64,000 nt of DNA from Candidatus Methanoliparum thermophilum (lineage in GTDB: Archaea; Halobacteriota; Methanoliparia; Methanoliparales; Methanoliparaceae). The notes below the pieces were generated by a model. It was given only the letters and a program-made list of their open reading frames with translations. It ran no database searches and was not told the origin of the DNA. Of this stretch, positions 26,395 through 55,979 are shown piece by piece (position 1 is the first letter of the stretch; each line of letters opens with the position of its first letter). Position numbers and translations under genes: made by a program. The stretch spans positions 62,001 through 126,000 of the forward strand of contig RXIF01000012.1 in assembly GCA_004212075.1 (NCBI GenBank), written 5' to 3'.

Positions 26395-26435
26395 TACGAA
26401 TCTTTGATTCGTAGTTCACAAATTAAAATTTGTGA
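26395..26435 (-). repeat. Family 1 double-hairpin repeat, copy A
   Basis: Two adjacent perfect hairpins: TACGAATC/GATTCGTA (loop TTT, 26395-26413) and TCACAAATT/AATTTGTGA (loop AA, 26416-26435). It fills the space between enolase and NFACT, and the NFACT stop codon is part of the second hairpin. Other copies: 26505, 41281, 54274, 55939. Confidence 0.8.
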
Positions 26436-28509
26436 TAATTCTTGAGTTTCCTGGTGGCATAAAATTGGCAATATCCTCCTGTGTAAAAAGTTTTTTTGGA
26501 ATATCACAAACCAAAGGTTTGTGGTTTACGAAGCTTCGCTTCGTAATATCTCTAATCTCCTTCATGAAATATCTGTATATCCTCTTGGCTACATCGTTTG
26601 GATTTAATTCACCAGGTTCTAGTTCTACAATGTATTTTGCTCTTTTAGATATTGCACTCTTTGGTCCACCAATCACTCCACTGATATTATCCAAGATCAA
26701 ACCTTTTTGGTCTTTTTGGTCTGCATTACCTATAACCTGAAGGCTTAATCCGATAGAAACGTCCATCTTTACCTCCTTAAAATAGTTTCTTTTGCCTCTG
26801 ATAATAAAACTACCTTTTGGTACATATTCTCCTGATTCAGGCGTTTTAGATACCTGTTCTGGATAAACCCAGTAACAATCTCCCGAAAATGCTCCTATCT
26901 TCCAGAAATTAGAATAACTTGTGGCGAATATTGCCGCCTCCTCCATTGTTGTTAGAGGTACTTCTTTGTTATTAGTTTTAATAACAGTTGCAGGTGCACC
27001 TTGAATATCTGCATGGAAGAAGATATCGTTCTTCTCCATATATTTACTTACAATCTCCTCGTTGCTATCGGCATCTTTTCCTCCTATTATTAGAAAACCA
27101 TCCGATGAGTAGAACCACCTAAATCTATGATACCATCTTTTATCTCGTCTTCTGATAACCAATATTCTATTCGCATCTTGTTTTTCTTTTTTTTTCGCTT
27201 TTTCTAGCTCTTTTAAGAAGATATCTCTGGATTTGATAGCTCCATCCATCTTTTTCTTGAACTTTTTACTTTTTTCATAGTACTCTTCAGCATTATTGGA
27301 TAAATTTTTTTCGAGGAAGAGATCTATCGATCTTCCGTCTATATTAAGAGTTATCTTTTTTGCAGCACCATCTATATCCTTTATATAATCCAATCCTTTT
27401 ATTCCTGCATCTCTCTTCTTATTCAACAACTTTTTTATATCGTCAAAAGAATATCTTTCTGTTGCTTTATTTATGATACTCAATATCTCGTTGATCAGTG
27501 TGTATCTCTCATAAATTAGATCTCCTATCTCCTTGTTCTCCTCCGATCTGTTTTTATACTCCTTAATTGCTGCCTCTTGCCTAGAGATTATTCTTTCTAC
27601 CTTTGAACCTCCGTTTTTTTTCTTATCTTTATTCTTAAGCTCTACCGTCTTTTTCTCTTCTATGCTTTGAAAATATTCATCAATACAATTATTGAACCTT
27701 TCAAAATATCTTTTTTCATATTTTGAGAAAGATTGCATATCAATAGGAAAGAAACCGATCGGTTTTTTAGATGAATAGACGATGTTTGGTTTGATCTCTC
27801 CTGCATTTACCGATGATAGTAGTTTATATATCTCATTTGTCAATCTTTCTATCTCTTCTTCAGATAAATCTTTTATACTCGCTTTTTTATCGACGTTACA
27901 CCTTATACAGATCTCTTCTGCATAAACTCCACCAAATCCAAGAGTTAATGCTATCGTCTCTACAATATTTTTTTCAGACGTTAAAAAGATAGAATGGAGA
28001 TGCTCTCTTAAAAAATCCAAATATAAGGGGGTAAAAATCTCCTCAGGAAACGTATAACGATCTCCTGTCTTTATCTTTATACTACCTTGAATTACGTTAT
28101 CTTTCCAGCCAACTATCTCGAAGTTATCATCTAATAATAGGACGTTTCCGCCTGCAAAAAGTTCTACAAGAAGATTATATCTTTTTCCACCACGTCCTAT
28201 CTCTATGATTACTATCCTATCTAAGAGATACTGATATATAGATAATATAGCCCCGCCGGATATATATTTTCGAAGAAGCATTGCAAAACCTGTAGGGTTC
28301 TTTGGTGCTGGTGGAGGCGTATTTGAGATATAGATTTTACCATTAATATCAATTATAATATCTTTTCTGCCAAATGTATAGGAATAAAATCTGACCCTGA
28401 TTATATCATCGATCTGATATATCTTATCAATTTTACCTCCTATTATCTCCTCAAACTCTTTGACAATCGCTAAAATATCGAGACCTGACATCTCTTTTTT
28501 TTGCTGCAT
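26416..28509 (-). CDS. NFACT/RqcH-type ribosome quality control protein
   Basis: A 697-residue archaeal NFACT protein (NEMF/Rqc2/RqcH relative), which recognises nascent peptidyl-tRNA on stalled large subunits. It has the FbpA-like N domain with LLDRIVIIEI near residue 103 (the conserved tRNA-contacting Asp-Arg), helix-hairpin-helix segments, a coiled coil about 370-440, and the NFACT-R domain (WYHRFRWFYSSDGFLIIGG near 456, FFHADIQGAPATVIK near 497 and YVPKGSFIIRGKRNYF near 568). The C-terminal ~60 residues are odd: a palindromic repeat lies in frame (see copy B) and another supplies the stop. TATA-poor upstream; start ATG 28509 agrees with homologues. Confidence 0.93.
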   Translation of the reverse strand: MQQKKEMSGLDILAIVKEFEEIIGGKIDKIYQIDDIIRVRFYSYTFGRKDIIIDINGKIYISNTPPPAPKNPTGFAMLLRKYISGGAILSIYQYLLDRIVIIEIGRGGKRYNLLVELFAGGNVLLLDDNFEIVGWKDNVIQGSIKIKTGDRYTFPEEIFTPLYLDFLREHLHSIFLTSEKNIVETIALTLGFGGVYAEEICIRCNVDKKASIKDLSEEEIERLTNEIYKLLSSVNAGEIKPNIVYSSKKPIGFFPIDMQSFSKYEKRYFERFNNCIDEYFQSIEEKKTVELKNKDKKKNGGSKVERIISRQEAAIKEYKNRSEENKEIGDLIYERYTLINEILSIINKATERYSFDDIKKLLNKKRDAGIKGLDYIKDIDGAAKKITLNIDGRSIDLFLEKNLSNNAEEYYEKSKKFKKKMDGAIKSRDIFLKELEKAKKKEKQDANRILVIRRRDKRWYHRFRWFYSSDGFLIIGGKDADSNEEIVSKYMEKNDIFFHADIQGAPATVIKTNNKEVPLTTMEEAAIFATSYSNFWKIGAFSGDCYWVYPEQVSKTPESGEYVPKGSFIIRGKRNYFKEVKMDVSIGLSLQVIGNADQKDQKGLILDNISGVIGGPKSAISKRAKYIVELEPGELNPNDVAKRIYRYFMKEIRDITKRSFVNHKPLVCDIPKKLFTQEDIANFMPPGNSRIITNFNL
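26505..26546 (-). repeat. Family 1 double-hairpin repeat, copy B, inside the NFACT coding sequence
   Basis: CACAAACC/GGTTTGTG (loop AAA, 26505-26523) followed by TTACGAAGC/GCTTCGTAA (loop TTC, 26526-26546). It lies in frame in the last 45 codons of NFACT and encodes about ITKRSFVNHKPLVCD. Both stems differ from the other copies yet remain perfectly paired. Confidence 0.75.
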
Positions 28510-28683
28510 CTTAAATCCGTACTTATTTTTATCTTTAATGGTAATGAAATCTTACGGTGGTTTAATATTCATATTGATATACTTTATTTCCAGACTACTG
28601 ATACCGATGAGAACAATTAATAATATATATTAAAAATATTTTATTATCTCTAAATTTAAATATCTTTGAAGATAGATAAAGAT

Positions 28684-28765
28684 GCGGAGGTTGCCGAGTG
28701 GAAAAGGCGCTAGATTTAGGGTCTAGTTCCGTAGGGATCCGTGGGTTCAAATCCCACCCTCCGCA
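28684..28765 (+). tRNA. tRNA-Leu (UAG)
   Basis: Acceptor GCGGAGG/CCTCCGC with discriminator A, anticodon stem CTAGA/TCTAG, loop TTTAGGG giving anticodon UAG (CUA codons), a long class II variable arm (TTCCGTAGGGATCC region) and T loop TTCAAAT. No intron. CCA is not encoded. Confidence 0.95.
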
Positions 28766-28800
28766 TTAAAATAATTAGTATTTTGATACCTGAATAAACT

Positions 28801-29679
28801 ATGCCCAGAATAACCATAAACCAGGATCTATGCAATAAATGTAATTCTTGTGTCGAGGTCTGTCCAGCAGAGATCTTTGCATCCAATAAAGAGGATATTC
28901 CAATCTTTATGGATAGTATAGCAGATGAATTCTGTATCTCTTGCGGTCATTGTGTTGCCATCTGCCCAAAAAATGCGATAAATCATAAAAATTTCCAAGA
29001 AGGACAAGTAACTCCTATTAAAAAGGAATTGATACCATCTAGCGATCAGATTAAGGAGATCTTAAGATCGATTAGATCGATACGAGAGTTCAAGGATAAA
29101 CCGGTGGAAAAAGAGTTGATTGAAAAGATAATAGACGTAGCAAGATTTGCACCGAGTGCTACAAATTTTCAAACGACTGAATATGTTGTAGTCCAGAATA
29201 AAGAGGTATTAACAAAGATTATAAATTTGACATACTCATATCTAGCTAAAATGTCCAAGTTGCTTCATAATCAAATAGTAAGTTCTTTGATCAGGATAGT
29301 CTTACCAAAGAATGCTAAAGAGATCATATCATATCGTCAAAAATTTGATAGATATGTTAAAGCGTATAAACTAGGTAAAGATAAGATATTATACAATGCT
29401 CCCGTCCTTATCTTATTTCATGCCGATAAAAAGACTCCTTTTGCTGATGTAAACGCTAATCTTGCTCTACATAACGCTTACGTCTATTGCTGGAGCCTTG
29501 GTTTGGGATCTTTTTATACAGGATTTGTAGTTCAGGCATCTCATTATAATACAGAAATTAAAAGACTGGTATCTATTTCGACGTCAAATAAAATATACGG
29601 TGGCTTGGCGATAGGTTATCCAAAGGTTAAATATAATAAATGGGTCGAAAGAAAAAAGCCAAGAATTAAATGGGTTTAA
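28801..29679 (+). CDS. Nitroreductase-family protein with N-terminal ferredoxin domain
   Basis: A 292-residue fusion: residues 1-65 carry two 4Fe-4S motifs (CNKCNSCVEVCP at 11 and CISCGHCVAICP at 45), and residues 80-292 form an FMN-binding nitroreductase domain (RSIRSIREFKDKPVEKELI near 90, FAPSATNFQTTEYVV near 117, and SLGLGSFYTGFVV near 235). The iron-sulfur domain probably feeds electrons to FMN from ferredoxin. Substrate unknown. The gene follows tRNA-Leu closely and has no visible Shine-Dalgarno. Confidence 0.9.
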   Translation: MPRITINQDLCNKCNSCVEVCPAEIFASNKEDIPIFMDSIADEFCISCGHCVAICPKNAINHKNFQEGQVTPIKKELIPSSDQIKEILRSIRSIREFKDKPVEKELIEKIIDVARFAPSATNFQTTEYVVVQNKEVLTKIINLTYSYLAKMSKLLHNQIVSSLIRIVLPKNAKEIISYRQKFDRYVKAYKLGKDKILYNAPVLILFHADKKTPFADVNANLALHNAYVYCWSLGLGSFYTGFVVQASHYNTEIKRLVSISTSNKIYGGLAIGYPKVKYNKWVERKKPRIKWV

Positions 29680-29701
29680 AAATACAATAATTAAAATAGA
29701 A

Positions 29702-30190
29702 ATGAGATCGTATAAAGGAATAAATGGGTTGATAACCGCTTTTGCAGAGGTTATCAATGGTTTTAGTAGTAAAAAAAAGGTTGCATTTGCAGGATCGGTC
29801 GGAGTCTGTACGCCTTTTGTAGAATTGCTTGCATATGGTGTCAGAAAAAAAGGGTTGGATATGGTATTCATCCCTGATGCTATTATCGAGAAGACAAAAA
29901 CGATGAGATTGATAGAAGATATCGGGTATCAAGTCACAGAAGATAAAGGTAATGCAGAAGGTAGCGATATTATCGTGGTACTCGGAGGGCTTGCAATGCC
30001 CTTTGCCAAAAAGACCATCAAAGATATAAACGATATGATAAATAGGATAAATCCCGATGCAAAGGTGATAGGCGTTGGATTTATGAAAATATTTGAAAGA
30101 GAAGGATGGATCAAGAATATTGGTTTCGATGTAGTGATAGACTCTACGTTAGATCCCGTGAAGGTTATAACCAAGGACGATGAGCTATAA
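29702..30190 (+). CDS. DUF2124 family protein
   Basis: A 162-residue protein matching the DUF2124 family known from methanogens and relatives: KKVAFAGSVGVCTPFVELLAYGVR near 25, SDIIVVLGGLAMPFAK near 87 and AKVIGVGFMKIFER near 120. A Rossmann-like alternation of strands and glycine-rich loops is visible, but no catalytic motif. Function is unknown. It lies 22 bases after the nitroreductase and may share its transcript; it converges on ribL. Confidence 0.8.
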   Translation: MRSYKGINGLITAFAEVINGFSSKKKVAFAGSVGVCTPFVELLAYGVRKKGLDMVFIPDAIIEKTKTMRLIEDIGYQVTEDKGNAEGSDIIVVLGGLAMPFAKKTIKDINDMINRINPDAKVIGVGFMKIFEREGWIKNIGFDVVIDSTLDPVKVITKDDEL

Positions 30191-30613
30191 TATTTTTTTC
30201 TCTACCTCATAGATCTTTTTACGTATTCTTCCACTTGAACAGAGCTCACAATCTAAAGATCTTGTAATTCGAACTATTTTAGCATTTATTCCCCTCTTTT
30301 CGAGCTCTTTTTTAAGCCAATCCTCTTTAAAATGTTGATCATATCCCAAAGCGATTATATCTGGATTTATATCATTTAAACTCTCAAACATATCGTTTTC
30401 ACTGCCTAATATTGCTTTATCTACGATTTTTAAAGATGATACCATCTTTAATCGTTGATTTTCCGATATTACGGGTTTAGGTTTGTGTTTTACGTTCTTA
30501 TCACGGGCAACTATCACATATAGTTCGTCTCCAAAAGATTTTGCATTTTCTAAATATAACAAATGGCCCGGATGTAGTATCTCAAAAGTTCCTGTCGCTA
30601 AAACTCTTACCAT
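30185..30613 (-). CDS. ribL: FAD synthase (FMN adenylyltransferase), archaeal RibL type
   Basis: Transfers AMP or CMP from the nucleotide to FMN to make FAD. The 142-residue nucleotidyltransferase has VLATGTFEILHPGHLLYL (HxGH at 14-17), VIVARDKNVKHKPKPVIS near 33, the ISENQR loop near 49, and a C-terminal CELCSSGRIRKKI. Two cysteines there are the conserved C-terminal pair of RibL. The 3' end overlaps the convergent DUF2124 gene by 6 bases, and the upstream JAMM gene overlaps its start, so the two minus-strand genes form an operon. Confidence 0.9.
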   Translation of the reverse strand: MVRVLATGTFEILHPGHLLYLENAKSFGDELYVIVARDKNVKHKPKPVISENQRLKMVSSLKIVDKAILGSENDMFESLNDINPDIIALGYDQHFKEDWLKKELEKRGINAKIVRITRSLDCELCSSGRIRKKIYEVEKKIL

Positions 30614-31029
30614 TCTTCATCATCTCTATATTCAAACTCGATATCTATCACAGGAATCGTTATCTTCTCTCCGTTAGAGTTATAGGACTGCCACGACTTG
30701 TTATCATACGGATAACACGTTATGATATGAACGGATCCTTTTTTCCTAAATAATGCCAAATCTACACTGGATGGGGTATAAATTATAGATGGATGGCTAT
30801 GAACGGTTCCCACGGTTCTAATACCTATAGGTATATTATAAAAATCCATTAATGCTCCTTTAGTTGAGCTATACGTACCAGGAATCAGGATAACCTCATT
30901 TACGACTCCATCTTTCTCCTTCAAAAGTCCTGAAAACTCATTGGGATATGAGGATTTACTGATCTCAAGTATTAAATGTAAGGTAGATTTAGCAATACCT
31001 TTGATATATCTTTTAGATACTCTTTTCAT
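30607..31029 (-). CDS. JAB1/MPN (JAMM) metalloprotease
   Basis: The JAMM zinc motif is complete: an upstream Glu in PNEFSGLL, then TVHSHPSIIYTPSSVD (H-S-H, seven residues, S-x-x-D). In archaea such proteins remove ubiquitin-like SAMP modifiers. The frame is open back to a TTG at 31125, but ATG 31029 gives the usual ~140 residues and lies about 28 bases after a CTTATAAG box, so I chose it. It overlaps ribL by 7 bases. Confidence 0.85.
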   Translation of the reverse strand: MKRVSKRYIKGIAKSTLHLILEISKSSYPNEFSGLLKEKDGVVNEVILIPGTYSSTKGALMDFYNIPIGIRTVGTVHSHPSIIYTPSSVDLALFRKKGSVHIITCYPYDNKSWQSYNSNGEKITIPVIDIEFEYRDDEEW

Positions 31030-31151
31030 TAAGATAGACTCAAGTTGTTTTATCCGACTTATAAGTTTTTTGTCTTTCAGACAAATAATAACTTTTATAA
31101 AAGTCTTAATATATAAAATCTCCAACTAATTAACATACAAAAAATAATAAA

Positions 31152-31949
31152 ATGAGCAAAAAAGCGATCGTATTTGATAGCTCTGGTACGCTTGTAGAAG
31201 TATTTCGTATCTTAAAAGATTTGGATAACAATCTATTTATTTACAACGTATCATCTACTTACTTAGTAAGCAAGAAAGATACCTGTGCGTTAATCGCGAT
31301 TGATGAAGATATAGATTGGATATTAAGCCAAGATTCTAACAAATTGATCTCTTCGTTAGATCTTGATTTTAAAGTAAGTTGTTCCTCATCAAAAATAATG
31401 GAAGATTTGATATATAATGCTTTAAAAAGAGATAAACGGGCAAAACTTTTGGATATTAAAGAGTTAGTGGATAAAGTATATCCAGTCCATAAAAAGATAT
31501 ATTATATAAACGTTGGTATCATAATAGATGTGTCAAGGAGAGAGAATACGATACATTTTTTGGTAGGATCGTCTGGCAAGATATTTAAAAACGTCTTTCT
31601 TTTGTTCGAGTCATTAAAAAAAGATTTTGATATATATATTGCAACAGGTGATACCAGAAGATCTGCAATTAAACTTGCAAATATTTTAAATATCGACAGT
31701 AGTAGAATATTCTCGCTTGCTACGCCTGTTATCAAAGAAAAAATTATTTTAGATTTAAAAAAAGAGTATGATACTGTAATAATGGTTGGAGATGGTATAA
31801 ACGATCTGTTGGCATTTAGAGCTGCGGATTTAAGCATATTAACGAGACAACAAGATCAAAAGGTTCCCAGTATTCTTATAAAATCTGCCGATCATGTAGT
31901 TTTAGACATGCTCCAGATACCAAAGATAATCGAGCTTTATGAAAAATAA
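31152..31949 (+). CDS. HAD-superfamily protein, P-type-ATPase-like soluble domain
   Basis: A 265-residue HAD phosphohydrolase-type protein. The motifs are KAIVFDSSGTLVEV (motif I, where the aspartate is followed by SSGT, resembling the DKTGT of P-type ATPases), IYIATGDTRRSA near 158 and VIMVGDGINDLLAFRAADLSIL near 212. There are no membrane segments, so it acts in the cytosol. The substrate is unknown. The gene ends 11 bases into the tfx-like gene, indicating one transcript. Confidence 0.8.
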   Translation: MSKKAIVFDSSGTLVEVFRILKDLDNNLFIYNVSSTYLVSKKDTCALIAIDEDIDWILSQDSNKLISSLDLDFKVSCSSSKIMEDLIYNALKRDKRAKLLDIKELVDKVYPVHKKIYYINVGIIIDVSRRENTIHFLVGSSGKIFKNVFLLFESLKKDFDIYIATGDTRRSAIKLANILNIDSSRIFSLATPVIKEKIILDLKKEYDTVIMVGDGINDLLAFRAADLSILTRQQDQKVPSILIKSADHVVLDMLQIPKIIELYEK

Positions 31950-32361
31950 TAATACAATATTAACAGATAAGCAGATTAAGATATTAAAGCTTAGAAAAGA
32001 AGGATTATCCCAGACAGAGATAGCAAAAATGATGAGAACGACCAAGCAGAATATTTCCTCTATCGAGCGAACCGTATGGCGGAAGATAGAACAGGCTAAA
32101 AATACGTTGCTATTTGCCAAGATATTAGAATCGCCTCTTATTATTACTATTAAAAAGAACTCTACTATAGATGAAGCTATAAAAAAGATATATGAGACGG
32201 CGGATAAGAATGGTATTCATATAATCTACGATAAGATCTCGCTTATTAAGAATATAAAAGAAAGTATAGGTGAGAGGATACATCATAGAAAGATCTTGAT
32301 AGATTTAACGATAGGTATAACAGATACAGGAGACGTATTGATCTTTAACTGTAATAGTTAA
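31939..32361 (+). CDS. Tfx-family transcriptional regulator
   Basis: A 140-residue protein with an N-terminal helix-turn-helix (TDKQIKILKLRKEGLSQTEIAKMM, residues 9-32, then TTKQNISSIERTVWRKIEQA) and an alpha/beta C-terminal domain (IHIIYDKISLI and LIDLTIGITDTGDVLIFN). This is the Tfx architecture; in Methanothermobacter Tfx binds near the molybdenum formylmethanofuran dehydrogenase operon. Its convergent neighbour here is mobA, supporting a link to Mo/W metabolism. The target in this genome cannot be seen. Confidence 0.85.
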   Translation: MKNNNTILTDKQIKILKLRKEGLSQTEIAKMMRTTKQNISSIERTVWRKIEQAKNTLLFAKILESPLIITIKKNSTIDEAIKKIYETADKNGIHIIYDKISLIKNIKESIGERIHHRKILIDLTIGITDTGDVLIFNCNS

Positions 32362-32365
32362 GAAC

Positions 32366-33001
32366 CTAATTTTTAAAGTCAGGGCTCAATCGGTGCTGCT
32401 GTCTTATTAAATTTATATCTTCTTTCGTGTTGATATTGAAAAAGCTCTTTAATTCAGGATCTATCTTTTTAATTAGTTCAATAGGGATATAATTGACATT
32501 TTTTAACAACTTAACGCACGAAAAAATTTTTTTAGAATTTTTATCGATCGAGACTTTGCATGCCCTCATCATTGGGTCTCTTCTATAGACAGCATGAAGA
32601 GGCTCCCTATATTTTTCGTTCCACACAGTAATAGCCGCATCAAAACCCTTACACGATTGGAAGAAGAAATTTATCAGATCTTTGTTCAAAAACGGAAGAT
32701 CTGTGGCAAAAACTCCGCAATATTCTGTTTTAGCATGTTTTAATCCTTCGTATATCCCAGCTACGGGTCCAAAATCTTTAACAGAATCTACTACTATAGA
32801 TATGTTGTAACTCTTTAAAACTTTTTCAACATCTTCTTTTTTTTTCATCTCATCGACTACTACTATTAAATCGCTAACGCATTCTGTTAATCTCTGAACA
32901 ACCAATTCAATCAACATCCTGCCGTTTATCTTGATAAAAGATTTGTCGATGCCCAATCTAAGACTTTTTCCTCCCGCCAGAACGATACCAGTCCGATCCA
33001 T
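32366..33001 (-). CDS. mobA: Molybdenum cofactor nucleotidyltransferase MobA
   Basis: Transfers GMP (or another nucleotide) to molybdopterin. From ATG 33001 the 211-residue protein begins TGIVLAGGKSLRLGIDKSFI, the family's GGxSxRxGxDK loop, then has IVVDSVKDFGPVAGIYEGLK near 72, FATDLPFLNKDL near 99 and EPLHAVYRR near 134. An in-frame start 105 bases upstream would add an unrelated N-terminus and is rejected. Together with moeA and the MobB-like gene it completes the late Mo cofactor pathway. Confidence 0.88.
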   Translation of the reverse strand: MDRTGIVLAGGKSLRLGIDKSFIKINGRMLIELVVQRLTECVSDLIVVVDEMKKKEDVEKVLKSYNISIVVDSVKDFGPVAGIYEGLKHAKTEYCGVFATDLPFLNKDLINFFFQSCKGFDAAITVWNEKYREPLHAVYRRDPMMRACKVSIDKNSKKIFSCVKLLKNVNYIPIELIKKIDPELKSFFNINTKEDINLIRQQHRLSPDFKN

Positions 33002-33091
33002 AATTGTACCCATAATCTTTCTCATTATAATACTTTTTATAGTCTGAATTATACTTTTATTATATTTAATCTTACAAAGACGGAGATACAG

Positions 33092-33697
33092 ATGAATCTT
33101 ACACAATATAGAGATAAATTATCTGTTCATATAGACAAGGTTAGCAGACCGTTCAATAGATTTACACCAAACCAGATCACACTTTTATCTTTTATTTTCG
33201 CATTGGTATCGATGATCCTTTATTATAAGAGAGTTCTATATTTGGCACCTATCTTTCTATTTATCTCGGCAATATTAGACCTGGTCGATGGCAACATTGC
33301 CAGAAGAGTAGGACTGGAGAGTAAATTTGGTGCCACTATAGATTGGATCGTCGACAAATATATCGATTGTCTTATAATAATAAGTATAACCCTGGGAGGA
33401 TTCGTATCGGCAAAGATTGCCTTGTTTGCAGTCTTCGGTTCTATGATAAATACGTTTATAAAACCAGTAACCTACATAGAGATAGGATTTGAAAAAAGAG
33501 TGGACGGAAAAATTATAGATCCTTTAGAGGGGATTGGATTTTTCGGAAGACCCGAGACGATAATAGTTATATTAATCGCTTCAGTCATAGAGATATTCTT
33601 TTCAAACGCCCTCTTATACGGGATTTATGTGATCGCAATAATGACCAATTTATCCGCCATAGACAGAATTATCTATCTATACAAAACTTACGGCTAG
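33092..33697 (+). CDS. CDP-alcohol phosphatidyltransferase family membrane enzyme
   Basis: A 201-residue integral membrane enzyme with about six helices and the complete motif DLVDGNIARRVGLESKFG plus ATIDWIVDKYID (D-x2-D-G-x2-A-R-x8-G-x3-D-x3-D, residues ~64-92). The family joins a CDP-activated lipid to an alcohol; in archaea this usually means archaetidylinositol-phosphate, archaetidylserine or archaetidylglycerol synthesis. The product cannot be chosen from sequence alone. Divergent from mobA and convergent with prs, overlapping its end by 4 bases. Confidence 0.88.
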   Translation: MNLTQYRDKLSVHIDKVSRPFNRFTPNQITLLSFIFALVSMILYYKRVLYLAPIFLFISAILDLVDGNIARRVGLESKFGATIDWIVDKYIDCLIIISITLGGFVSAKIALFAVFGSMINTFIKPVTYIEIGFEKRVDGKIIDPLEGIGFFGRPETIIVILIASVIEIFFSNALLYGIYVIAIMTNLSAIDRIIYLYKTYG

Positions 33698-34551: not shown

Positions 34552-34556
34552 AATCA

Positions 34557-35744: not shown

Positions 35745-35811
35745 GGTTCCTGCACCTCCTTAAGCAGTGTAGATTTATCCTACACAAGAGTGAAGAACAT
35801 TTGTTTTTCAT
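35735..35811 (-). repeat. Family 2 composite repeat carrying a Shine-Dalgarno and TTG start
   Basis: Read on the minus strand: AAACAAATGTTCTTCACTCTT (near 35808-35787), a GTGTAG/CTACAC hairpin (35767-35785), then AGGAGG and GCAGGAACCTTGGTTCTGC (35753-35735). The TTG in the last palindrome is the only plausible start for the delta-like subunit. The same order recurs at 56978-57084. Confidence 0.75.
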
Positions 35812-36632: not shown

Positions 36633-36638
36633 ATTATT

Positions 36639-37622: not shown

Positions 37623-37637
37623 CTTTTTACCTCCTTA

Positions 37638-41195: not shown

Positions 41196-41280
41196 GATTA
41201 AATATAAATATAGAAATGCAAAGTAGATTATTTAACCTTTATTCGCTTTTATTTGCCTCGTTAATTTTTGTCAAGATGTT

Positions 41281-41320
41281 GCAAATCAAAGATTTGCAGC
41301 TCACGAATCTTCGATTCGTG
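41281..41320 (-). repeat. Family 1 double-hairpin repeat, copy D
   Basis: GCAAATC/GATTTGC (loop AAA, 41281-41297) then CACGAATC/GATTCGTG (loop TTC, 41302-41320), joined by AGCT. It supplies the last codons and stop of the 131-residue gene on the minus strand. About 85 bases beyond the purF stop. Confidence 0.8.
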
Positions 41321-41696
41321 ATGATTTTTTGCGTATTCTTGGTTGGCGATTTTTGATCTCTAAGAAATGATCTTTAGCAGTCTCCGTAAACAATTTGTTT
41401 TCTGGTACTTCTAATGGCGGTAATGCACTTATAACTGTATTTTGATCCGTTTTAATGATAATATTCTCTATAATCAACTCTTCTAGGATAGAGATCAAAG
41501 ATTCGACAGGGAGATCCACACTAATCTTTGAATCTTTCTCAATATAATTGTAAAAGAAATATATTATATCATCTATAGCAACTCCTCTCATTCCCAGAAA
41601 GGACATTAAAAATTGGTAATTTGAGTTTTGCATGAATCCATTAACCGCATAAACTATCAACGATCTAATAGCCAGTTCATCATATTCTTCTATCAT
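41301..41696 (-). CDS. Hypothetical protein, 131 residues
   Basis: Unrecognised soluble helical protein. The first half is hydrophobic-patterned (LAIRSLIVYAVNGFMQNSNYQFLMSFLGM) and the middle resembles a small winged-helix-like or regulatory segment (IDDIIYFFYNYIEKDSK, LISILEELIIENIIIK). The final residues (RIRKKSSRIEDS) are basic and run into a palindromic repeat, which contributes the TGA. It stands alone between purF and the PEBP gene. Composition and codon use are like its neighbours, so it is probably real. Confidence 0.6.
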   Translation of the reverse strand: MIEEYDELAIRSLIVYAVNGFMQNSNYQFLMSFLGMRGVAIDDIIYFFYNYIEKDSKISVDLPVESLISILEELIIENIIIKTDQNTVISALPPLEVPENKLFTETAKDHFLEIKNRQPRIRKKSSRIEDS

Positions 41697-44429: not shown

Positions 44430-44436
44430 TTGATAA

Positions 44437-45000: not shown

Positions 45001-45004
45001 TATA

Positions 45005-47972: not shown

Positions 47973-47994
47973 AATAATACCACTAAAATGATTA

Positions 47995-48732
47995 TTAAGA
48001 TATAAAAGCCTTATTTCTCCCATAAAATACAAAAGATTTGACAAATTGCTCCGTATTCTCTGATTCCATGAATGATGTTCCTATAAGGACCGAGTCAGCA
48101 ATTTTAAGTGCTCTTTTTAAATCTTCAACGTTTTTTATTCCGCTCTCGCTTACTATAAGGTAGTCTTTGTTTTTAAAGATAAAATCTTTTTTTAAATAAT
48201 CTACAATATTTTCACTTACAGATACATCTCCATCATCAGTCTCCATCTTTAAAATATCTCTATTGTTTATTCCTATCATTTTTAGATTTGTATCTCTTAA
48301 ATAATGTACATCATCGATGTTATGGATCTCAACAAGTGGTTCTAACCCATTATCTAACGAATAATCTATGAATTCTCCTATTTTTTCTTTTAAGATTCCA
48401 GTTATAAGGAGAATGGCAGATGCACCAAGATTTGCAGTTAATTCGATCTCTTTTTTATCTGTAATGAAATCTTTCCGTAAAACAGGCAGATTAGAATACT
48501 TACAAATCTTTCTTAATATCTCAATATTCCCTCCAAAAATATTTTTCTCGGTTATATAAGAGATTCCTACTACGCCCGCTCTTTCATATTCTAAGAGAAT
48601 ATCGATAGGATCTCTCTTACGTAATAAATCTCCCTTGGTAGGAGACTTAACTTTTATTTCAGCTATTATTGGATTTTTAAACCTTGATGCTTCTTTGATA
48701 CATTCAAACATATTTTTAGTGCTTGTTCCCAT
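47995..48732 (-). CDS. trpC: Indole-3-glycerol phosphate synthase
   Basis: Closes the indole ring. 245 residues, TIM barrel: NPIIAEIKVKSPTKGDLLRK near 20 (catalytic Lys), ISYITEKNIFGGNIEILR near 57, PVLRKDFITDKKEIELTANLGASAILLI near 83, LVEIHNIDDVHYL near 133, IGINNRDILKMETD near 154 and VSESGIKNVEDL near 194. First gene of the operon. Its TATA box is overlapped by a near-perfect palindrome at 48743-48763 and the mRNA leader would be only a few bases. Confidence 0.95.
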   Translation of the reverse strand: MGTSTKNMFECIKEASRFKNPIIAEIKVKSPTKGDLLRKRDPIDILLEYERAGVVGISYITEKNIFGGNIEILRKICKYSNLPVLRKDFITDKKEIELTANLGASAILLITGILKEKIGEFIDYSLDNGLEPLVEIHNIDDVHYLRDTNLKMIGINNRDILKMETDDGDVSVSENIVDYLKKDFIFKNKDYLIVSESGIKNVEDLKRALKIADSVLIGTSFMESENTEQFVKSFVFYGRNKAFIS

Positions 48733-48742
48733 AATATATGGA

Positions 48743-48765
48743 TATATACAATATTAGTATATAAA
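48743..48765 (-). promoter_or_regulatory. trp promoter with overlapping palindromic operator candidate
   Basis: TATATAC at 48743-48749 and GTATATA at 48757-48763 are inverted copies around AATATTA. On the minus strand the distal arm is the TATA box (TTTATATAC, 48765-48757), about 25-30 bases from the trpC ATG at 48732. A protein bound to the palindrome would block TBP. The opposite promoter (TTTAAATA at about 48846-48853) drives the divergent ACT-domain regulator. Confidence 0.5.
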
Positions 48766-48874
48766 CTTTTTTAAAAAACTTAAATATCTTTTTTTAATGG
48801 TTATACTTTATAAATTAGAATAAAAGATCGTCTTGAGATTAAAAATTTAAATATGCGAATACTATTTATACAAC

Positions 48875-49375
48875 GTGTGGGAAAAAATAAAGAGAAAATT
48901 TGATCGTTTTCCATCTCAGTTAAAGGTTGCAAAAACGTTTTTAAAGTTGGGAATATCCGTCAAAGGTGGGAAAGCTTTCTGTGGTAATATAGAGCTCGTC
49001 CCGACTAAGATTGCGCGTGCATTGGATGTGGATAGAAACGTAGTAGTCTTAGCCATTGAGAATATAGAGAAGGATGAGGAACTTAAAACCGTATATGGAT
49101 CAATAAAGCCCGTGGCAGAGATCAGCGAGGTTTCTAAAATATTTGGTTATCCTGTACTGGAGGTCTTTGCAGACAGCATGGAGGCAGGGATTGTCGCTAA
49201 TATTACCGGTATTATAGCACGCAACAACATCTCTATAAGATACATACTGGCAGAAGATCCTGATATTAGTGTGATATCTAAGCTAACATTGGTAACCAAT
49301 GAAAAAATTCCTGGTGCTTTGGTAGACGAGTTTCTCACCGTAAAAGGTGTAAAAAAGATTGTAGTATCTACATAA
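48875..49375 (+). CDS. ACT-domain regulator of amino acid metabolism (COG2150-like)
   Basis: A 166-residue protein. Residues 1-75 form a helix-turn-helix-like domain (QLKVAKTFLKLGISV and VPTKIARALDVDRNVVVLAIENI), and 85-166 an ACT domain (YPVLEVFADSMEAGIVANITGIIARNNISIRYIL), which binds amino acids. It starts with GTG 48875 about 24 bases after a TTTAAATA box, so its mRNA is leaderless. Being divergent from the trp operon, it is the obvious candidate trp regulator, but this is inference from position. Confidence 0.8.
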   Translation: MWEKIKRKFDRFPSQLKVAKTFLKLGISVKGGKAFCGNIELVPTKIARALDVDRNVVVLAIENIEKDEELKTVYGSIKPVAEISEVSKIFGYPVLEVFADSMEAGIVANITGIIARNNISIRYILAEDPDISVISKLTLVTNEKIPGALVDEFLTVKGVKKIVVST

Positions 49376-49435
49376 ATAGGCTGAGGTTAAACAAAATGTT
49401 TAAATTAAAAAGTAATCTAACTTGATTTTTAGATT

Positions 49436-50443
49436 ATGAAAAGAGTAGCATTGATAAAAGGTGATGGAGTAGGGCCAGAGCTCGTTTCTTCTTTATTAAA
49501 AGTTTTAGATGTTATAAAACCGGATATAGAGTTCATTGAATGTAATGCCGGTGCCGAATGGTGGAAAAAGAACAAAGCGGACTCTTTAATTCCTGAAGAG
49601 ACCTGGGATATTTTAGATAGTTCTGATGCATGTTTTAAGGGTCCAACAACAACGCCAGGCGGTGAAGGAACCCCTAAAAGCGTTGCCGTATCAATCAGAC
49701 AGAAATACAACCTATATGCAAATGTCAGGCCTATAGAGACTATTACAGGTATAGAGCTATGTTGTGTTAGAGAGGCTACAGAAGGGTTTTATTTTGGTGG
49801 TGAGATGGAGATTACTGATAATGTCTTTATCTCAATTAGAAAAATAACGAGAGAATCATGCAGAAAGATCGCAAGATACGCATTTGAAGAGGCACGCCGT
49901 AGGAATTATAAAAATGTAGTAGCAATACATAAAAGCAACATTCTTAAAAAAACATGCGGTACATTTTTAGAAGAGGTACAAAATGTAAAAAAGAATTATC
50001 CAGATATAGATCTATCGGATTACCATATAGACGACATGGCACAACAGATAATTAAAAATATTCAACGATTCGATAAGAGTATTCTACTATCTACCAACCT
50101 TTTTATGGATATAATAAGCGAAGAATGTTCTGGTCTGGCTGGAAGTATCGGACTGATTCCTTCTGCTAACATAGGAGATAATTATGCAATGTTTGAGCCC
50201 GCACATGGATCTTCACCTAAATATAAAGGATTAAATAAAGTAAATCCAACAGCCACTATTCTTGCCGGTGCATGGATGTTAGAATACTTGGGCGATAAAG
50301 ATAATGCAGAAAAAATAAGATTGGCTACAAAGGATACGATAAGAGAGAAGAAACATGTAACTTACGATCTTGGTGGAAGTTCAAAGATGAGCGAGATGAC
50401 TGATGAGATAATAAGAAATCTAAAAAAGTATATGGAGGTATAA
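49436..50443 (+). CDS. Isocitrate/isopropylmalate dehydrogenase family enzyme, probably isocitrate dehydrogenase
   Basis: A 335-residue decarboxylating dehydrogenase: VALIKGDGVGPELV at the start, FKGPTTTPGGEGTPKSVAVSIRQKYNLYANVRPIET near 66-100 with the substrate-binding Ser and Arg residues, VVAIHKSNILKKTCG near 160 with the catalytic Lys, and EPAHGSSPKYKGLNKVNPTATILAGAWML near 257. TTTPGGEGTPKSVAVS resembles isocitrate dehydrogenases more than isopropylmalate or homoisocitrate enzymes. No other TCA or leucine gene is nearby to settle it. It is followed one base later by the NAC gene. Confidence 0.85.
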   Translation: MKRVALIKGDGVGPELVSSLLKVLDVIKPDIEFIECNAGAEWWKKNKADSLIPEETWDILDSSDACFKGPTTTPGGEGTPKSVAVSIRQKYNLYANVRPIETITGIELCCVREATEGFYFGGEMEITDNVFISIRKITRESCRKIARYAFEEARRRNYKNVVAIHKSNILKKTCGTFLEEVQNVKKNYPDIDLSDYHIDDMAQQIIKNIQRFDKSILLSTNLFMDIISEECSGLAGSIGLIPSANIGDNYAMFEPAHGSSPKYKGLNKVNPTATILAGAWMLEYLGDKDNAEKIRLATKDTIREKKHVTYDLGGSSKMSEMTDEIIRNLKKYMEV

Positions 50444-50444
50444 A

Positions 50445-50783
50445 ATGTTTCCAAAAGGGATGAATCCAAAAAAACTTAAACAAATGATGAAACAAATGGG
50501 AATAAACGTAGAGGTTATAAATGACGTAAAAGAGGTTAAAATAGTTACAAAAGATAAAGAGCTGATATTTAAAGACGCTGAAGTAACTATTATGGATGTA
50601 AAAGGCTCAAAAACATACCAGATTACTGGAATACCCGAAGAAAAAGAGATAAGCAGTATTAAAAGGGAGGATATAGATCTTGTTATGGAGAAAGCAGGTG
50701 TAACAGAGGAAGATGCTAAGAAAGCATTGGAAGAGACGGATGGAGATATAGCCGCGGCTATAATGAAATTAATGGATAATTAA
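50445..50783 (+). CDS. nac: Nascent polypeptide-associated complex protein (archaeal NAC)
   Basis: A 112-residue homodimeric ribosome-associated chaperone: N-terminal NPKKLKQMMKQMGINVEVINDVKEV, the NAC beta-barrel (EVTIMDVKGSKTYQITG) and a C-terminal UBA domain (EDIDLVMEKAGVTEEDAKKALEETDGDIAAAIMKLM). It binds nascent chains at the exit tunnel. Full length and canonical. Confidence 0.95.
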   Translation: MFPKGMNPKKLKQMMKQMGINVEVINDVKEVKIVTKDKELIFKDAEVTIMDVKGSKTYQITGIPEEKEISSIKREDIDLVMEKAGVTEEDAKKALEETDGDIAAAIMKLMDN

Positions 50784-50869
50784 TTATATTGATACTGATC
50801 TATACAAAATGCCAAACTTAAAATATAAGTTATAGATTTTAGTGTTGGAATAAAAGAAGGGATGATAAT

Positions 50870-53137
50870 TTGGACACCGTCTGGATAAAAGATGTAGGAA
50901 AAAAAGATATAGGGATTGCTGGTGGGAAAGGCGCTAATCTTGGTGAGATGATAAATAAGGGGTTACCTGTCCCGCCAGGATTTATTATCACGGCAAAAGC
51001 GTTTAGAAATTTTTTAAAGGAGAGCGGTATAGAGAAAAAACTGTTTGATATATTGATGATAGACATAGATGACGATGCTCAATTAAAAGATGCCGAAAAA
51101 AAGGCGAAACAGCTAATTTTCAATACGAAAATACCTGAAAATATTAAAAAAGAGATCTTAGATAAGTATAGGACTCTATGTAATGAAGAGGGAGGAGAAG
51201 TCTTTGTTGCAGTAAGATCAAGTGCCACAGCAGAAGATTTACCCGATGCAAGTTTTGCTGGACAACAAGATACCTTTTTGAATATCAAAGGAGAAGAGCA
51301 ACTGATAGATGCGGTAAAAAAATGTTGGGCATCGTTATACGGTGCAAGGGCAATATTTTACCGTGTAAAGAAGAATTTTGATCATGAAAAGGTAAACATT
51401 GCAGTAGTAGTACAGAAGATGGTTAATGCAGAGAAAGCAGGTGTAATGTTTACATCCCATCCGTCTAGCGGAGAAAATGTTGCTATAATAGAGTCTATAT
51501 GGGGTCTGGGTGAGGCGGTAGTATCTGGAATGGTATCTCCCGACAATTTTGTAATTGATAAAGAGACATATAGAATAATAGATAAAAAGATAAGCGAAAA
51601 AACAAAGATGTGTATCAAAGATCCTAAAACAGGAGATACCATCTATATAGATGTCCCACAAGATAAGAGAAACGCCGAATCTTTGACAGATGATGAGATC
51701 AAAGAACTGGTAAACCTAGGAAATAAAATAGAAAGGATATATAGATTCCCACAAGATGTAGAATGGGCTATCGAGAATGGGAAGATATTTATCCTCCAAT
51801 CAAGGGCTATAACCACGATAAATAATAATAACATAGTAAAAGAAGGAATCAGTAAAGAACCTATCCTTATAGGAACGGGTGCATCTCCAGGTATAGTCTC
51901 TGGTAGAGTAGTGATAATAAACAGCATTAAAGATCTGAACAAAGTGGAAAAAGGGGACATTATGGTTGCAAAGATGACTTCGCCTGATATGGTTCCAGCA
52001 ATGGAAAGAGCCTCAGGCATAGTAACGGATGAGGGGGGTATGACATGCCACGCTGCGATAGTATCGCGAGAACTTGGTACTCCGTGTATAGTTGGTTCAA
52101 AAAAAGCCACTAAAGTTTTGAAGAATGGAGATACCATAACTATAGATGGAGCAAAAGGTACGATATATAAAGGAAGGATCGATACAAAGACGGAGACTAA
52201 GGAAGAGGTCGTTATAAAAAATAAACCGATAATTACTGCTACAGAGGTAAAAGTAAATATATCTATACCTTCAGCGGCTGAGAGGGCTGCTAAAACTGGT
52301 GCAGATGGTGTAGGTCTCCTAAGGATAGAACATATGGTTCTTACGCTTCCAATGCATCCACAGAAGTATATAGATGAAGGAAGATCGGAAGAGTATGTAG
52401 ATGAGCTTGTTAAAGGCATAAAAACGGTTGCAGATGCATTTTATCCGAAACCGGTATGGGTTAGAACCATAGATGCGCCAACGGATGAGTTTAGAGCGAT
52501 GCCTGGTGGGGAAGGAGAGCCTATAGAGGCAAACCCGATGCTCGGCTGGAGAGGTATCAGAAGAGATCTGACTATAAAAGAGCATTTCAGGTTGGAGATG
52601 AGGGCATTCAAGAAACTCTTTAATATGGGATATGATAACGTGGGGATAATGTTGCCGTTGATTCAACATCCTTATGAGATCAGAGAGGCAAAGCAGATGA
52701 TGATCGATGAAGGGATAGATCTTAACAAGGTAGAGTGGGGCATAATGGTCGAGACACCAGCAGCTGCGATACTAATAGAGGATATCATCAAAGAAGGAAT
52801 AGACTACATATCCTTTGGTACAAACGATCTTATACAGTATACGCTAGCCATCGATAGAAACAACGAGAACGTATCATACATGTATGACGAGGAGCATCCT
52901 GCTGTGTTAAAACTGATCAAATATGTTATAGATAAGTGTAACGAGGCAGGAGTAAAGACTTCCGTATGTGGCCAGGCAGGATCTAACCCGAAGATAGTAG
53001 AAAAACTCGTCGAGTACGGTATAAAAAGCGTCTCTTCAAACATAGATGGAGTTGCAGATGTAAGAGAGGCAGTTGCACGAAAAGAGAGGCAAATAATGCT
53101 AGAATCGGCATTAAAATCTATAAAAAAAGATGGATAA
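50870..53137 (+). CDS. ppsA: Phosphoenolpyruvate synthase
   Basis: Makes PEP from pyruvate and ATP, the entry to gluconeogenesis, and works with enolase in this window. 755 residues: the ATP-grasp domain (KGANLGEMINKGLPVPPGF near 24, FVAVRSSATAEDLPDASFAGQQDTFLN near 112), the phospho-His domain with His394 in GGMTCHAAIVSRELGTPC, and the PEP barrel ending in VKTSVCGQAGSNP with the catalytic Cys. The start is TTG 50870 after GAAGGG; no ATG fits. The stop overlaps mfnA by 8 bases. Confidence 0.96.
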   Translation: MDTVWIKDVGKKDIGIAGGKGANLGEMINKGLPVPPGFIITAKAFRNFLKESGIEKKLFDILMIDIDDDAQLKDAEKKAKQLIFNTKIPENIKKEILDKYRTLCNEEGGEVFVAVRSSATAEDLPDASFAGQQDTFLNIKGEEQLIDAVKKCWASLYGARAIFYRVKKNFDHEKVNIAVVVQKMVNAEKAGVMFTSHPSSGENVAIIESIWGLGEAVVSGMVSPDNFVIDKETYRIIDKKISEKTKMCIKDPKTGDTIYIDVPQDKRNAESLTDDEIKELVNLGNKIERIYRFPQDVEWAIENGKIFILQSRAITTINNNNIVKEGISKEPILIGTGASPGIVSGRVVIINSIKDLNKVEKGDIMVAKMTSPDMVPAMERASGIVTDEGGMTCHAAIVSRELGTPCIVGSKKATKVLKNGDTITIDGAKGTIYKGRIDTKTETKEEVVIKNKPIITATEVKVNISIPSAAERAAKTGADGVGLLRIEHMVLTLPMHPQKYIDEGRSEEYVDELVKGIKTVADAFYPKPVWVRTIDAPTDEFRAMPGGEGEPIEANPMLGWRGIRRDLTIKEHFRLEMRAFKKLFNMGYDNVGIMLPLIQHPYEIREAKQMMIDEGIDLNKVEWGIMVETPAAAILIEDIIKEGIDYISFGTNDLIQYTLAIDRNNENVSYMYDEEHPAVLKLIKYVIDKCNEAGVKTSVCGQAGSNPKIVEKLVEYGIKSVSSNIDGVADVREAVARKERQIMLESALKSIKKDG

Positions 53138-54257
53138 TATAACTAAAGAAGAGGATATATTAAATCTTGTTAGAGAGGCGAAATCGGAAGATATACCATA
53201 TGAAAGAGTCTTTAGTTCGATGTGTACCCATCCTCATCCTATAGCTGTAAAAGCACATAACTTATTCTTGAGCTCTAATGCAGGGGATCCAGGTATATTC
53301 AAGGGTACTAATAAGCTGGAAAAGAAGGTTATCTCTATGATCGGAGATTTGTTGCATAAAAGAGATGCGTGTGGATATATTAGTACTGGCGGTACAGAAT
53401 CAAATATACAAGCGATAAGGATGGCACGAAATCTTAAACAAAGAAAAAAACCAAACTTTATAGTCTCTGAGATGGGACACTTTTCTTTTGAAAAGACCGC
53501 CGATATTCTTGGAATCAAACTAAAAAAAGCAGAGGTAAGAGACGATTTGACGATAGACCCTGATTCTGTAGAGAGACTTATAGATGATGACACCATAGCA
53601 ATAGTGGGCATTGCAGGAACAACCGAGTTTGGACAGATAGATCCTATAGAAGAATTATCAAAGATTGCTTTAGAAAACGATGTCTTCTTACATATAGATG
53701 GGGCCTTTGGTGGTTTTGTTATACCGTTCTTGGATAAAAAGTATATGTTCGACTTTGAACTTGATGGGGTATCGTCTATATCAGTCGATCCGCACAAGAT
53801 GGGAATGAGTGTTATTCCATCTGGTGCCTTATTGACAAGAGATAAAAAATATTTAAAACGTTTGGAAATATCTACTCCTTATTTATCATCTAAATCTCAA
53901 TTTACTCTTACAGGAACCAGAAGTGGTGCATCCATCGCGGCTACTTATGCGGTATTGATGTATCTTGGCTGGGATGGGTTCAAGAGTATTGTCAAGAGCT
54001 GTCTTCGTATGACTAATATTATCGTCGAAGGCATGAGAGATTTAGATATCAACCCTGTAATAGACCCAAAGATGAATGTTCTGGCTTTAAACGTACCAAA
54101 ACTATGTAAAGTTTTTAATACGTTGTGGAAAAAAGGATGGTGTGTATCTAAAACCAGAAAGCCAAAGGCATTACGGTTGGTGGTCATGCCTCATATTACC
54201 GAAGATATAATCGATGATTTTTTAAAAGATTTTAAGAGAGCATTAAGAGAAATTTAA
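53130..54257 (+). CDS. mfnA: L-tyrosine/L-aspartate decarboxylase MfnA
   Basis: PLP decarboxylase that makes tyramine for methanofuran or beta-alanine for CoA in archaea. 375 residues with STGGTESNIQAIRMARN near 85, SEMGHFSFEKTADILGI near 113 (His117 stacks on PLP), HIDGAFGGFVIPF near 188 and the PLP lysine 223 in SISVDPHKMGMSVIPSG. Whether tyrosine or aspartate is preferred cannot be read from these motifs. The start overlaps the ppsA stop. Confidence 0.92.
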   Translation: MDNITKEEDILNLVREAKSEDIPYERVFSSMCTHPHPIAVKAHNLFLSSNAGDPGIFKGTNKLEKKVISMIGDLLHKRDACGYISTGGTESNIQAIRMARNLKQRKKPNFIVSEMGHFSFEKTADILGIKLKKAEVRDDLTIDPDSVERLIDDDTIAIVGIAGTTEFGQIDPIEELSKIALENDVFLHIDGAFGGFVIPFLDKKYMFDFELDGVSSISVDPHKMGMSVIPSGALLTRDKKYLKRLEISTPYLSSKSQFTLTGTRSGASIAATYAVLMYLGWDGFKSIVKSCLRMTNIIVEGMRDLDINPVIDPKMNVLALNVPKLCKVFNTLWKKGWCVSKTRKPKALRLVVMPHITEDIIDDFLKDFKRALREI

Positions 54258-54273
54258 TAAGATAATTGATGTT

Positions 54274-54313
54274 GCAAATCGAAGATTTGCGGCTCACAAA
54301 TTAAAATTTGTGA
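54274..54313 (+). repeat. Family 1 double-hairpin repeat, copy E
   Basis: GCAAATC/GATTTGC (loop GAA, 54274-54290) then TCACAAATT/AATTTGTGA (loop AA, 54294-54313), joined by GGC. It lies between mfnA and dph2, 10 bases before the dph2 ATG, so it is part of the transcript. Confidence 0.8.
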
Positions 54314-54322
54314 TGTTTAAAG

Positions 54323-55321
54323 ATGGATGATACATACGTGGTAGATCTGGAAGAGCTTTTTGCTTTGATCGATAGAAAAAAAGCAAAGATAGTAGGATTA
54401 CAGTTCCCAGACGGTTTGGTACGTTTTTTTCAAGATATTAAGGAAAAATTGGAGGATAAAAGGGATATTTTAGTCTTATTATCTGGTAATTCCTCTTTTG
54501 GTAGTTGTGATATAGATTTTGATCTTTTAAATATTGTAGATCTTCTATTTCATTTCGGTCATACGAGTATGTTCAAGATTGATAAGGTGGAGTATATACC
54601 TGTTAAGATTAAATTGAGAGAGGATATTTTGGAAGATCTATTGAAAAAATCGCTTTCTTACATAATCTCAAATAAGATATCTCTGGTAACCACTCCTCAA
54701 TATAAAGACTATCTACTTAATATTAGAGATTTTTATGAAGAGAACGGCATAACATGCTCGATCAACGAAGGAGATAATCGGGTTAAAGATAGAGGTATAG
54801 TCTTGGGATGCAATTTTTCAGCCGCAAAAGGGGCTGGAAAAGAAGTAATCTTTTTAGGAGACGGAAGTTTTCATCCGATCGGTATAAAGATTGCAACTCA
54901 GAAGAGAGTGATTAGGATAGACCCTTTGATACAAGATATAGAAGAGATAAGAGTGGAAAAGTTGTTAAAACAGAGATATGCCCTCATATCTAAATCGATA
55001 GGATTTAAATCAGCAGGAATACTTGTAAGTAATAAAATAGGTCAAAATAGATTTGATTTGGCACAAAGATTGTATAAAGAGACGTTAAATAGAGGATACA
55101 AAGCGTATCTTATATACATGAATTTAATACGCCCTGAATCAATTGGATTAAAAGTAGATATTCTTGTAAATACAGCATGCCCTAGAATTGCAATAGATGA
55201 TTATATCTCGTTTGATAAACCAATCTTGACTCCAATAGAGTTTAACATGATACTAAAAGATAAAATTATGGAATATCGGATGGATGAGATAAGGGAAGAG
55301 GATATTTATCCAACATTTTAA
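54323..55321 (+). CDS. dph2: Diphthamide synthase Dph2
   Basis: A radical (ACP-forming) SAM enzyme that starts diphthamide on elongation factor 2. 332 residues with the three cluster cysteines in SSFGSCDIDFDLLN near 58, GCNFSAAK near 163 and NTACPRIAIDDY near 284, and IVGLQFPDGLVRFFQDI at the start. All archaea with diphthamide have this single-gene homodimer. Followed 9 bases later by the methylase gene. Confidence 0.93.
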   Translation: MDDTYVVDLEELFALIDRKKAKIVGLQFPDGLVRFFQDIKEKLEDKRDILVLLSGNSSFGSCDIDFDLLNIVDLLFHFGHTSMFKIDKVEYIPVKIKLREDILEDLLKKSLSYIISNKISLVTTPQYKDYLLNIRDFYEENGITCSINEGDNRVKDRGIVLGCNFSAAKGAGKEVIFLGDGSFHPIGIKIATQKRVIRIDPLIQDIEEIRVEKLLKQRYALISKSIGFKSAGILVSNKIGQNRFDLAQRLYKETLNRGYKAYLIYMNLIRPESIGLKVDILVNTACPRIAIDDYISFDKPILTPIEFNMILKDKIMEYRMDEIREEDIYPTF

Positions 55322-55330
55322 ATTTTTAAA

Positions 55331-55921
55331 ATGAAAAAGAAAAGATTGGAGATTTTTTTAGAAGGATTAGAAAAGTTTTCGTATCCTAAAGCATATTTAG
55401 AGCAATATAGCACTCCTGCTAATATAGCTGCAGAACTTTTGGTTTATGCCAAATTAAAAGGGGATTTAAGCGGGTCTGTATGTGATCTCGGATGTGGAAC
55501 AGGTATTTTTGCCATCGGTGCCAAAATTTTAGGTGCAGAGAAGGTATATGCTATCGATGTTGATGAGAATGCATTGGAGATCGCACGGAGAAACGCAGAC
55601 AAGTATGATTGTGGGATAGATTTTATCCGTATGGATATAGCTGATATTGATAAGAACGATCTACAGGTAGATACCGTGTTGATGAACCCGCCATTTAAAT
55701 CCCATAAAGATATAAAATTCTTAAATAAGTCATTAGAATTGGCAGATGTTGTATATTCGATGCATAATGGAGTTACAGAAGAATTTATAAACAATTATGT
55801 AGTAGATATATGTAATGGTTTTGAGATACGAAAGATAAGATTTCCAATAAAAAGAACGTTTGAGTTTCATAGGAAAAATGTTAAAGAGATAGATGTTAAT
55901 ATATACAGGTTTCAGCGTTGA
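55331..55921 (+). CDS. METTL5-like RNA methyltransferase
   Basis: A 196-residue SAM-dependent methylase with LEQYSTPANIAAELL near 23, SVCDLGCGTGIFAIGAKILGAEKVYAIDVDE near 50 (SAM site), and the catalytic MNPPFKSHKD near 120, followed by VYSMHNG. The layout matches archaeal relatives of METTL5, which makes N6-methyladenine in small-subunit rRNA. The substrate is inferred. Confidence 0.88.
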   Translation: MKKKRLEIFLEGLEKFSYPKAYLEQYSTPANIAAELLVYAKLKGDLSGSVCDLGCGTGIFAIGAKILGAEKVYAIDVDENALEIARRNADKYDCGIDFIRMDIADIDKNDLQVDTVLMNPPFKSHKDIKFLNKSLELADVVYSMHNGVTEEFINNYVVDICNGFEIRKIRFPIKRTFEFHRKNVKEIDVNIYRFQR

Positions 55922-55938
55922 AACTAAGTTTTAAACAT

Positions 55939-55979
55939 CACGAATCGAAAATTCGTGAGCTTCAAATCTTCGATTTGAA
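55939..55979 (+). repeat. Family 1 double-hairpin repeat, copy F
   Basis: CACGAAT/ATTCGTG (loop CGAAA, 55939-55957) then TTCAAATC/GATTTGAA (loop TTC, 55961-55979), joined by AGC. The order of the two hairpins is the reverse of copies D and E, so this copy is inverted. It lies between the methylase and csl4 genes. Confidence 0.8.

Follow-up and report, generated by a model that had tools for sequence, protein, structure and literature searches.

The double hairpins scattered along the genome of Candidatus Methanoliparum thermophilum, an oil-degrading, methane-making archaeon, are very probably copies of a very small, non-autonomous, MITE-like palindromic mobile element, about 43 bp in length. 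These short palindromes are mobile and are not conserved regulatory structures. Their main feature, overlooked in an earlier sequence-only reading that had described five full copies and a half copy with covarying stems, is in-frame insertion inside genes. Below, "the window" is the whole stretch of DNA analyzed, 64,000 nucleotides in length.

All five full copies were found in the window within one base of the starts that the sequence-only reading had given, in both orientations as it had claimed. They are double hairpins with perfect or nearly perfect pairing, with stems of 7–9 bp, loops of 2–5 nt, and linkers of 2–3 nt. Copy 1 (26392..26437, + strand) consists of TA, a 42-bp element at 26394-26435 with a second loop of 2 nt, and TA again, the double hairpin lying at 26395-26435; copy 2 (26502..26548, - strand) is a 43-bp element at 26504-26546 with TA on both flanks and a double hairpin at 26505-26546. 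Both involve the same gene, an ORF on the - strand (26416..28509) with the Pfam domains NFACT_N and NFACT-R_1. Copy 2 lies in frame close to its C-terminus and adds 15 codons with the core peptide ITKRSFVNHKPLVCD, and copy 1 forms the 3' end of the gene, providing the final codons and the stop (ORF end 26416). The sister species G001 lacks copy 1, its C-terminus differs, and its NFACT protein is without most of the copy 2 insert, in a tail that is poorly conserved in the alignment. Copy 3 (41277..41323, + strand; TG, a 43-bp element at 41279-41321, TG; double hairpin 41280-41321) contains the 3' end and stop of a 131-aa ORF on the - strand (41301-41696) for which a Pfam search gave zero matches; the copy is missing from the orthologous place in G001, where the site is otherwise diverged. 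The remaining two are intergenic. Copy 4 (54270..54315, + strand; TG, a 42-bp element at 54272-54313, TG; double hairpin 54274-54313) lies between a pyridoxal-dependent decarboxylase gene and a diphthamide synthesis gene, at a site that is an assembly gap in G001, and is left out of the comparison with that genome. Copy 5 (55936..55982, - strand; a 43-bp element at 55938-55980 with TG on both flanks; double hairpin 55938-55979) has a methyltransferase gene on one side and the exosome Csl4 gene on the other, and is missing from the orthologous G001 site.

The "half copy" that had been placed at 56905 turned out to be a degenerate arm only (56900..56925, no strand assigned; GATTTGCAACATC read on the + strand) and not a hairpin of this family; it is missing among the matches of the covariance-model search, and its surroundings, from about 56900 to 57080, are a patchwork of further short hairpin repeats. 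Imperfect hairpins of a second family, GCAGGAACC..GGTTCTGC, occur at 56900-57090 of the window and at loci L003, L012, and L014; they form mosaics with GAAAACAAATG and TTCTTCACTC blocks, and several double hairpins lie within or adjoining these. An Rfam search of the window matched tRNAs and one CRISPR repeat and nothing else. A TnpB-like zinc-ribbon fragment is found ~850 bp from the single CRISPR-DR2 repeat match (14764-14877 and 15714-15743).

The copies in the window belong to a genome-wide family, as the earlier reading had supposed, and its statement that no named family could be recognized stands. Searched at E < 0.005 with a covariance model made from 22 copies, the 1.26-Mb genome shows the element at about 45 separate locations. 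The stem core CACRAATY-NNN-RATTYGTG is present 25 times, against zero occurrences of the reversed control pattern, and CRAATC-NNN-GATTYG is present 64 times, again against zero for its reversed control. The claimed covariation of the stem arms is borne out: across the 22 copies 96.2% of cells pair, with eight pairs and 32 cells altered on both sides, whereas control structures slid along the sequence pair in merely 28–43%, and none of 500 shuffles matched the covariation score. In 42 copies, 647 of 672 stem pairs are Watson-Crick, eight are G-T, and 17 are mismatches.

The unit can be written T-[8-bp stem, 3-nt loop]-3 nt-[8-bp stem, 3-nt loop]-A, about 43 bp, and in its canonical orientation reads dinucleotide, T, hairpin 1, 3-nt linker, hairpin 2, A, dinucleotide. 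Both hairpins have the core ACRAATC, with an outer pair that is usually T-A in hairpin 1 and is C-G in hairpin 2. The element has terminal inverted repeats, as a MITE does, and these are imperfect (TTACRAATC / TCACRAATC). The linker is not constant (GCT, AAC, GTT, ACT, and others). Of 76 loops of 3 nt, 75 consist of purines only or of pyrimidines only, and several were seen either way round on identical arms (GAA/TTC, AAA/TTT, and GGA/TCC). Within an element the two arms differ in all 42 copies, where 4.3 copies with identical arms would be expected (p = 0.006). No copy has G in both cores. Single hairpins also exist, in which the left arm of hairpin 1 is joined to the right arm of hairpin 2; these look like deletion products, and elements with two identical hairpins may have been lost through such deletion.

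Each element is bounded by a copy-specific 2-bp direct repeat, with TG, TA, AG, AA, or AC on both sides. The left and right flanks agree at positions 1 and 2 in 39 and 37 of 43 copies, compared with about 31 and 19 expected, and when flanks were shuffled among copies none of 5000 permutations gave match counts as high; the copies are related, so that these p-values overstate independence and are indicative. Position 3 is also coupled (21 matches vs. 15 expected), mostly in copies sharing one composite context, and positions farther out show no left-right coupling. The same matching, including an AA/AA case and with one TG/TA exception, is seen in copies from G001 and from the Methanolliviera genome G002. 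The matching flanks are most simply read as a short target duplication of 2 bp, although 3 bp is possible. Because a 43-bp element comes with a 2-bp duplication, each insertion adds 45 bp net, equal to 15 codons.

Comparison with the sister species, which belongs to the same genus, shares about 80% DNA identity, and was compared over about half of its genome, indicates that the elements have moved. Most copies that could be compared are missing there, and clean empty orthologous sites were found for several, among them C2:160641, C3:79996, C3:80287, C7:3163, C3:77010, and C6:136645. At C3:77010, deleting the element and one dinucleotide yields exactly the G001 sequence, GAAGAGATAATTAAA, and the same deletion gives the orthologous frame at C6:136645, C3:80287 (thymidylate kinase), C2:160641 (F420 ligase), and C7:3163 (Mut7-C). 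Terminal inverted repeats, target-site duplication, and empty sites are all present, so that the elements fit the definition of a MITE in everything but a partner element. One copy, at C2:81935, is apparently common to both species; its first hairpin has decayed in G001, and pairing is therefore not kept up after insertion. Together with the empty sites, this decay ties the pairing to the lineage that spreads, as opposed to a role for the host at individual sites. The compensatory change noted in the sequence-only reading is real, but the view of each copy as a structure conserved in place is not supported, since most compared copies are missing from G001.

About a third of the clean copies (15/42) lie inside long open reading frames. 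All 15 have a net length of 45 bp, compared with 19 of 27 elsewhere, and all preserve the frame and contain no stops, in either orientation; the product of the frame chances is about 1e-5, a figure that is partly circular, as "internal" was itself called via the open frame. The splitting of conserved genes offers an independent check: no gene that is conserved in relatives was seen to be split by any of the remaining 28 copies, as judged from about half of G001 and parts of other genomes. One apparent gene-splitting match among these 28 was rejected as an antisense 83-aa ORF. ORFs were called mechanically, in a genome (G000) that is 86% complete and was examined in stretches. Hosts named by Pfam are F420 ligase, thymidylate kinase (two internal copies, with a third at the 3' end), a TPP/POR enzyme, Mut7-C, a DUF92 membrane protein, thymidylate synthase, CobN chelatase, a PHP protein, a T2SSE ATPase, mevalonate kinase (GHMP), the RNA polymerase Rpb2 subunit, an ABC ATPase, and NFACT; one further host has no Pfam family above the cut-off. 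Some internal copies lie near protein ends, those of RpoB and the PHP protein near the N-terminus and that of NFACT near the C-terminus. The gene for DNA gyrase subunit B also holds a degenerate in-frame copy of 41 nt (L087:136-2028, C2:16336). At several insertion points the G001 orthologues are exactly 15 residues shorter, and solved F420 ligases and thymidylate kinases are without the inserted residues. The two orientations encode similar peptides (VTNQRFVAHKSKICD and ITNQRFVSYESEIRN), and NVTNQRFVAHKSKICD is an example of the peptide predicted across an insert (Tmk, CofE, or CobN).

Related elements occur in all five Methanoliparales genomes, which make up one taxonomic family. A further 290 genomes were sampled from the phylum, and a single one of them has related elements (G133, a member of another family). 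Among the related hairpins of G133 (L198), one keeps the frame of a 233-aa ORF resembling a transposase, without Pfam support. An exact-pattern scan of GTDB genome contigs found the motif only in Candidatus Methanolliviera hydrocarbonicum (Methanoliparales), which shares its family but not its genus with the organism studied here, and a scan of viral contigs gave zero matches. Insertions in frame were also found in G001 (mevalonate kinase and dUTPase), G002 (mevalonate kinase, HMG-CoA reductase, and aconitase X), and G003 (a DDE transposase), so that mevalonate kinase carries one in three species, at three different positions (L015, L155, and L057). The Methanolliviera genomes (G002-G004; L046-L066, L208-L217) have longer chains of three to four hairpins, with a common core AAATC-NNN-GATTT and other linkers.

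We propose that the element targets A/T-rich sites, favors TG or TA, and duplicates 2 bp on insertion, and that insertion would be roughly random, with selection purging copies that break genes and leaving those that are intergenic, at gene ends, or in frame; the 15 added residues are presumably translated and tolerated. Movement is probably the work of an enzyme acting in trans, which would make cuts with a 2-nt stagger and recognize both hairpins as a cruciform or as single-stranded DNA. Such an enzyme would explain the near-perfect Watson-Crick pairing with few G-T pairs, the compensatory change between copies, and the decay after insertion. Given the scarcity of G-T pairs and the loss of pairing after insertion, the hairpins probably matter as DNA during movement. 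In the organism's own genome (86% complete), searches for Y1_Tnp, DDE_Tnp_1, DDE_3, and Resolvase (serine recombinases) gave no match. TnpB genes are present, and the hairpins listed around three of them have no ends in common and do not match; on contig C11 a related double hairpin adjoins a TnpB fragment.

An engine without any transposase seems unlikely. In this alternative, a single strand from displaced or broken DNA would fold back and be copied into breaks or forks via template switching, with fold-back repair keeping the arms complementary. The fruitless search of the four transposase and recombinase families, the nearly perfect arms with their few G-T pairs, the loops of uniform base class present in both orientations, as expected from hairpin flipping, and the single hairpins that fuse the outer arms of a pair would all fit such spread. 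The copy-specific 2-bp duplication and the constant ends, however, fit a dedicated enzyme better, and the absence of an enzyme was seen in an incomplete genome. This alternative concerns the engine alone and leaves mobility and in-frame insertion unaffected. The sequence-only reading had suggested a REP-associated Y1 transposase (RAYT), which would make the elements REP or REPIN-type. Their size, short stems, adjacent hairpin pairs, and intragenic copies do recall REP dimers (PMC3733652), and the Methanolliviera genome G003 carries one Y1 gene. However, no Y1 gene was found in the organism's own genome (86% complete), G001, or G002, and linker and flanks vary, leaving no conserved GTAG or CGTC tag. 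Moreover, Y1 transposition is not known to make target duplications, whereas these elements have them, and we regard a Y1-driven origin as quite improbable.

It is very improbable that the hairpins are RNA or DNA structures that serve the host, such as terminators or regulator sites. Several copies do lie at gene 3' ends or between genes, as such structures might, but many sit within coding frames, most of the compared sister-species sites are empty, the apparently common copy decays there, and the A/T-rich stems come without a T run. An insert that is excised from the transcript or bypassed in translation, and hence never reaches the protein, has a precedent in the byp elements of yeast mitochondria, which are likewise hairpin inserts in genes (PMC6649704, PMC8211752). 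A skipped or spliced insert would not need to be 45 bp and stop-free in frame, as all 15 internal copies are, and we consider this reading extremely improbable.

The double hairpins can be set beside several known systems. Fungal mitochondrial double-hairpin elements have two adjacent hairpins, covarying stems, and a scattered, variable presence; they share these features with the elements described here but are organellar. Rickettsia palindromic elements (RPEs; Ogata et al. 2000, via PMC2229807 and PMC10969869) are palindromic repeats in and between bacterial genes, alike in their in-frame insertion in conserved genes, with the host gene's frame kept open through them, in their intergenic copies, and in the lack of a known transposase. 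Judged by published descriptions, however, each RPE is one long stem-loop of 105–150 bp in bacteria, with the target duplication entered as unknown (PMC2229807), whereas the archaeal elements have two hairpins in about 43 bp, a 2-bp duplication, and empty sites. The REP dimers tagged with CGTC or GTAG, which include RPE-4 and RPE-6 and were surveyed in bacterial phyla only (PMC3733652), share stem length (8–9 bp in CGTC repeats), adjacent hairpin pairs, intragenic units, and gene ends supplied by the repeat, and CGTC repeats are, as here, without a transposase; the archaeal elements differ in having neither tag and in loops of 3 nt instead of the 4–5 nt of CGTC repeats. They resemble RPEs and intragenic REP dimers, yet fail the size or tag definitions and are not counted here as members of either. 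Archaeal MITEs (in Sulfolobus, Haloquadratum, and others; PMC10969869) are likewise short and non-autonomous with imperfect terminal inverted repeats and a target duplication, but the present elements are smaller, have two hairpins, lie in frame within genes, and have no partner insertion sequence that we could find. A literature search returned no archaeal RPE-like case of in-frame palindromes and no report on Methanoliparum repeats.

In bacteria, selfish palindromes that sit in protein genes are known from Rickettsia, Wolbachia, and some REP families. The archaeal elements described here are very small, show clean empty sites and a target duplication of few bases, and add exactly 15 codons to core genes such as those for thymidylate kinase and mevalonate kinase. 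It is conceivable, if doubtful, that they represent protein-coding palindromes of archaea whose size (43 + 2 bp) and stop-free frames on both strands make them tolerable in essential genes either way round, possibly spreading by fold-back without a transposase. They supply natural 15-residue insertions at known sites of solved protein folds, and offer a tractable case for asking how palindromes orphaned of a transposase are mobilized and why the hairpins of a pair always differ.
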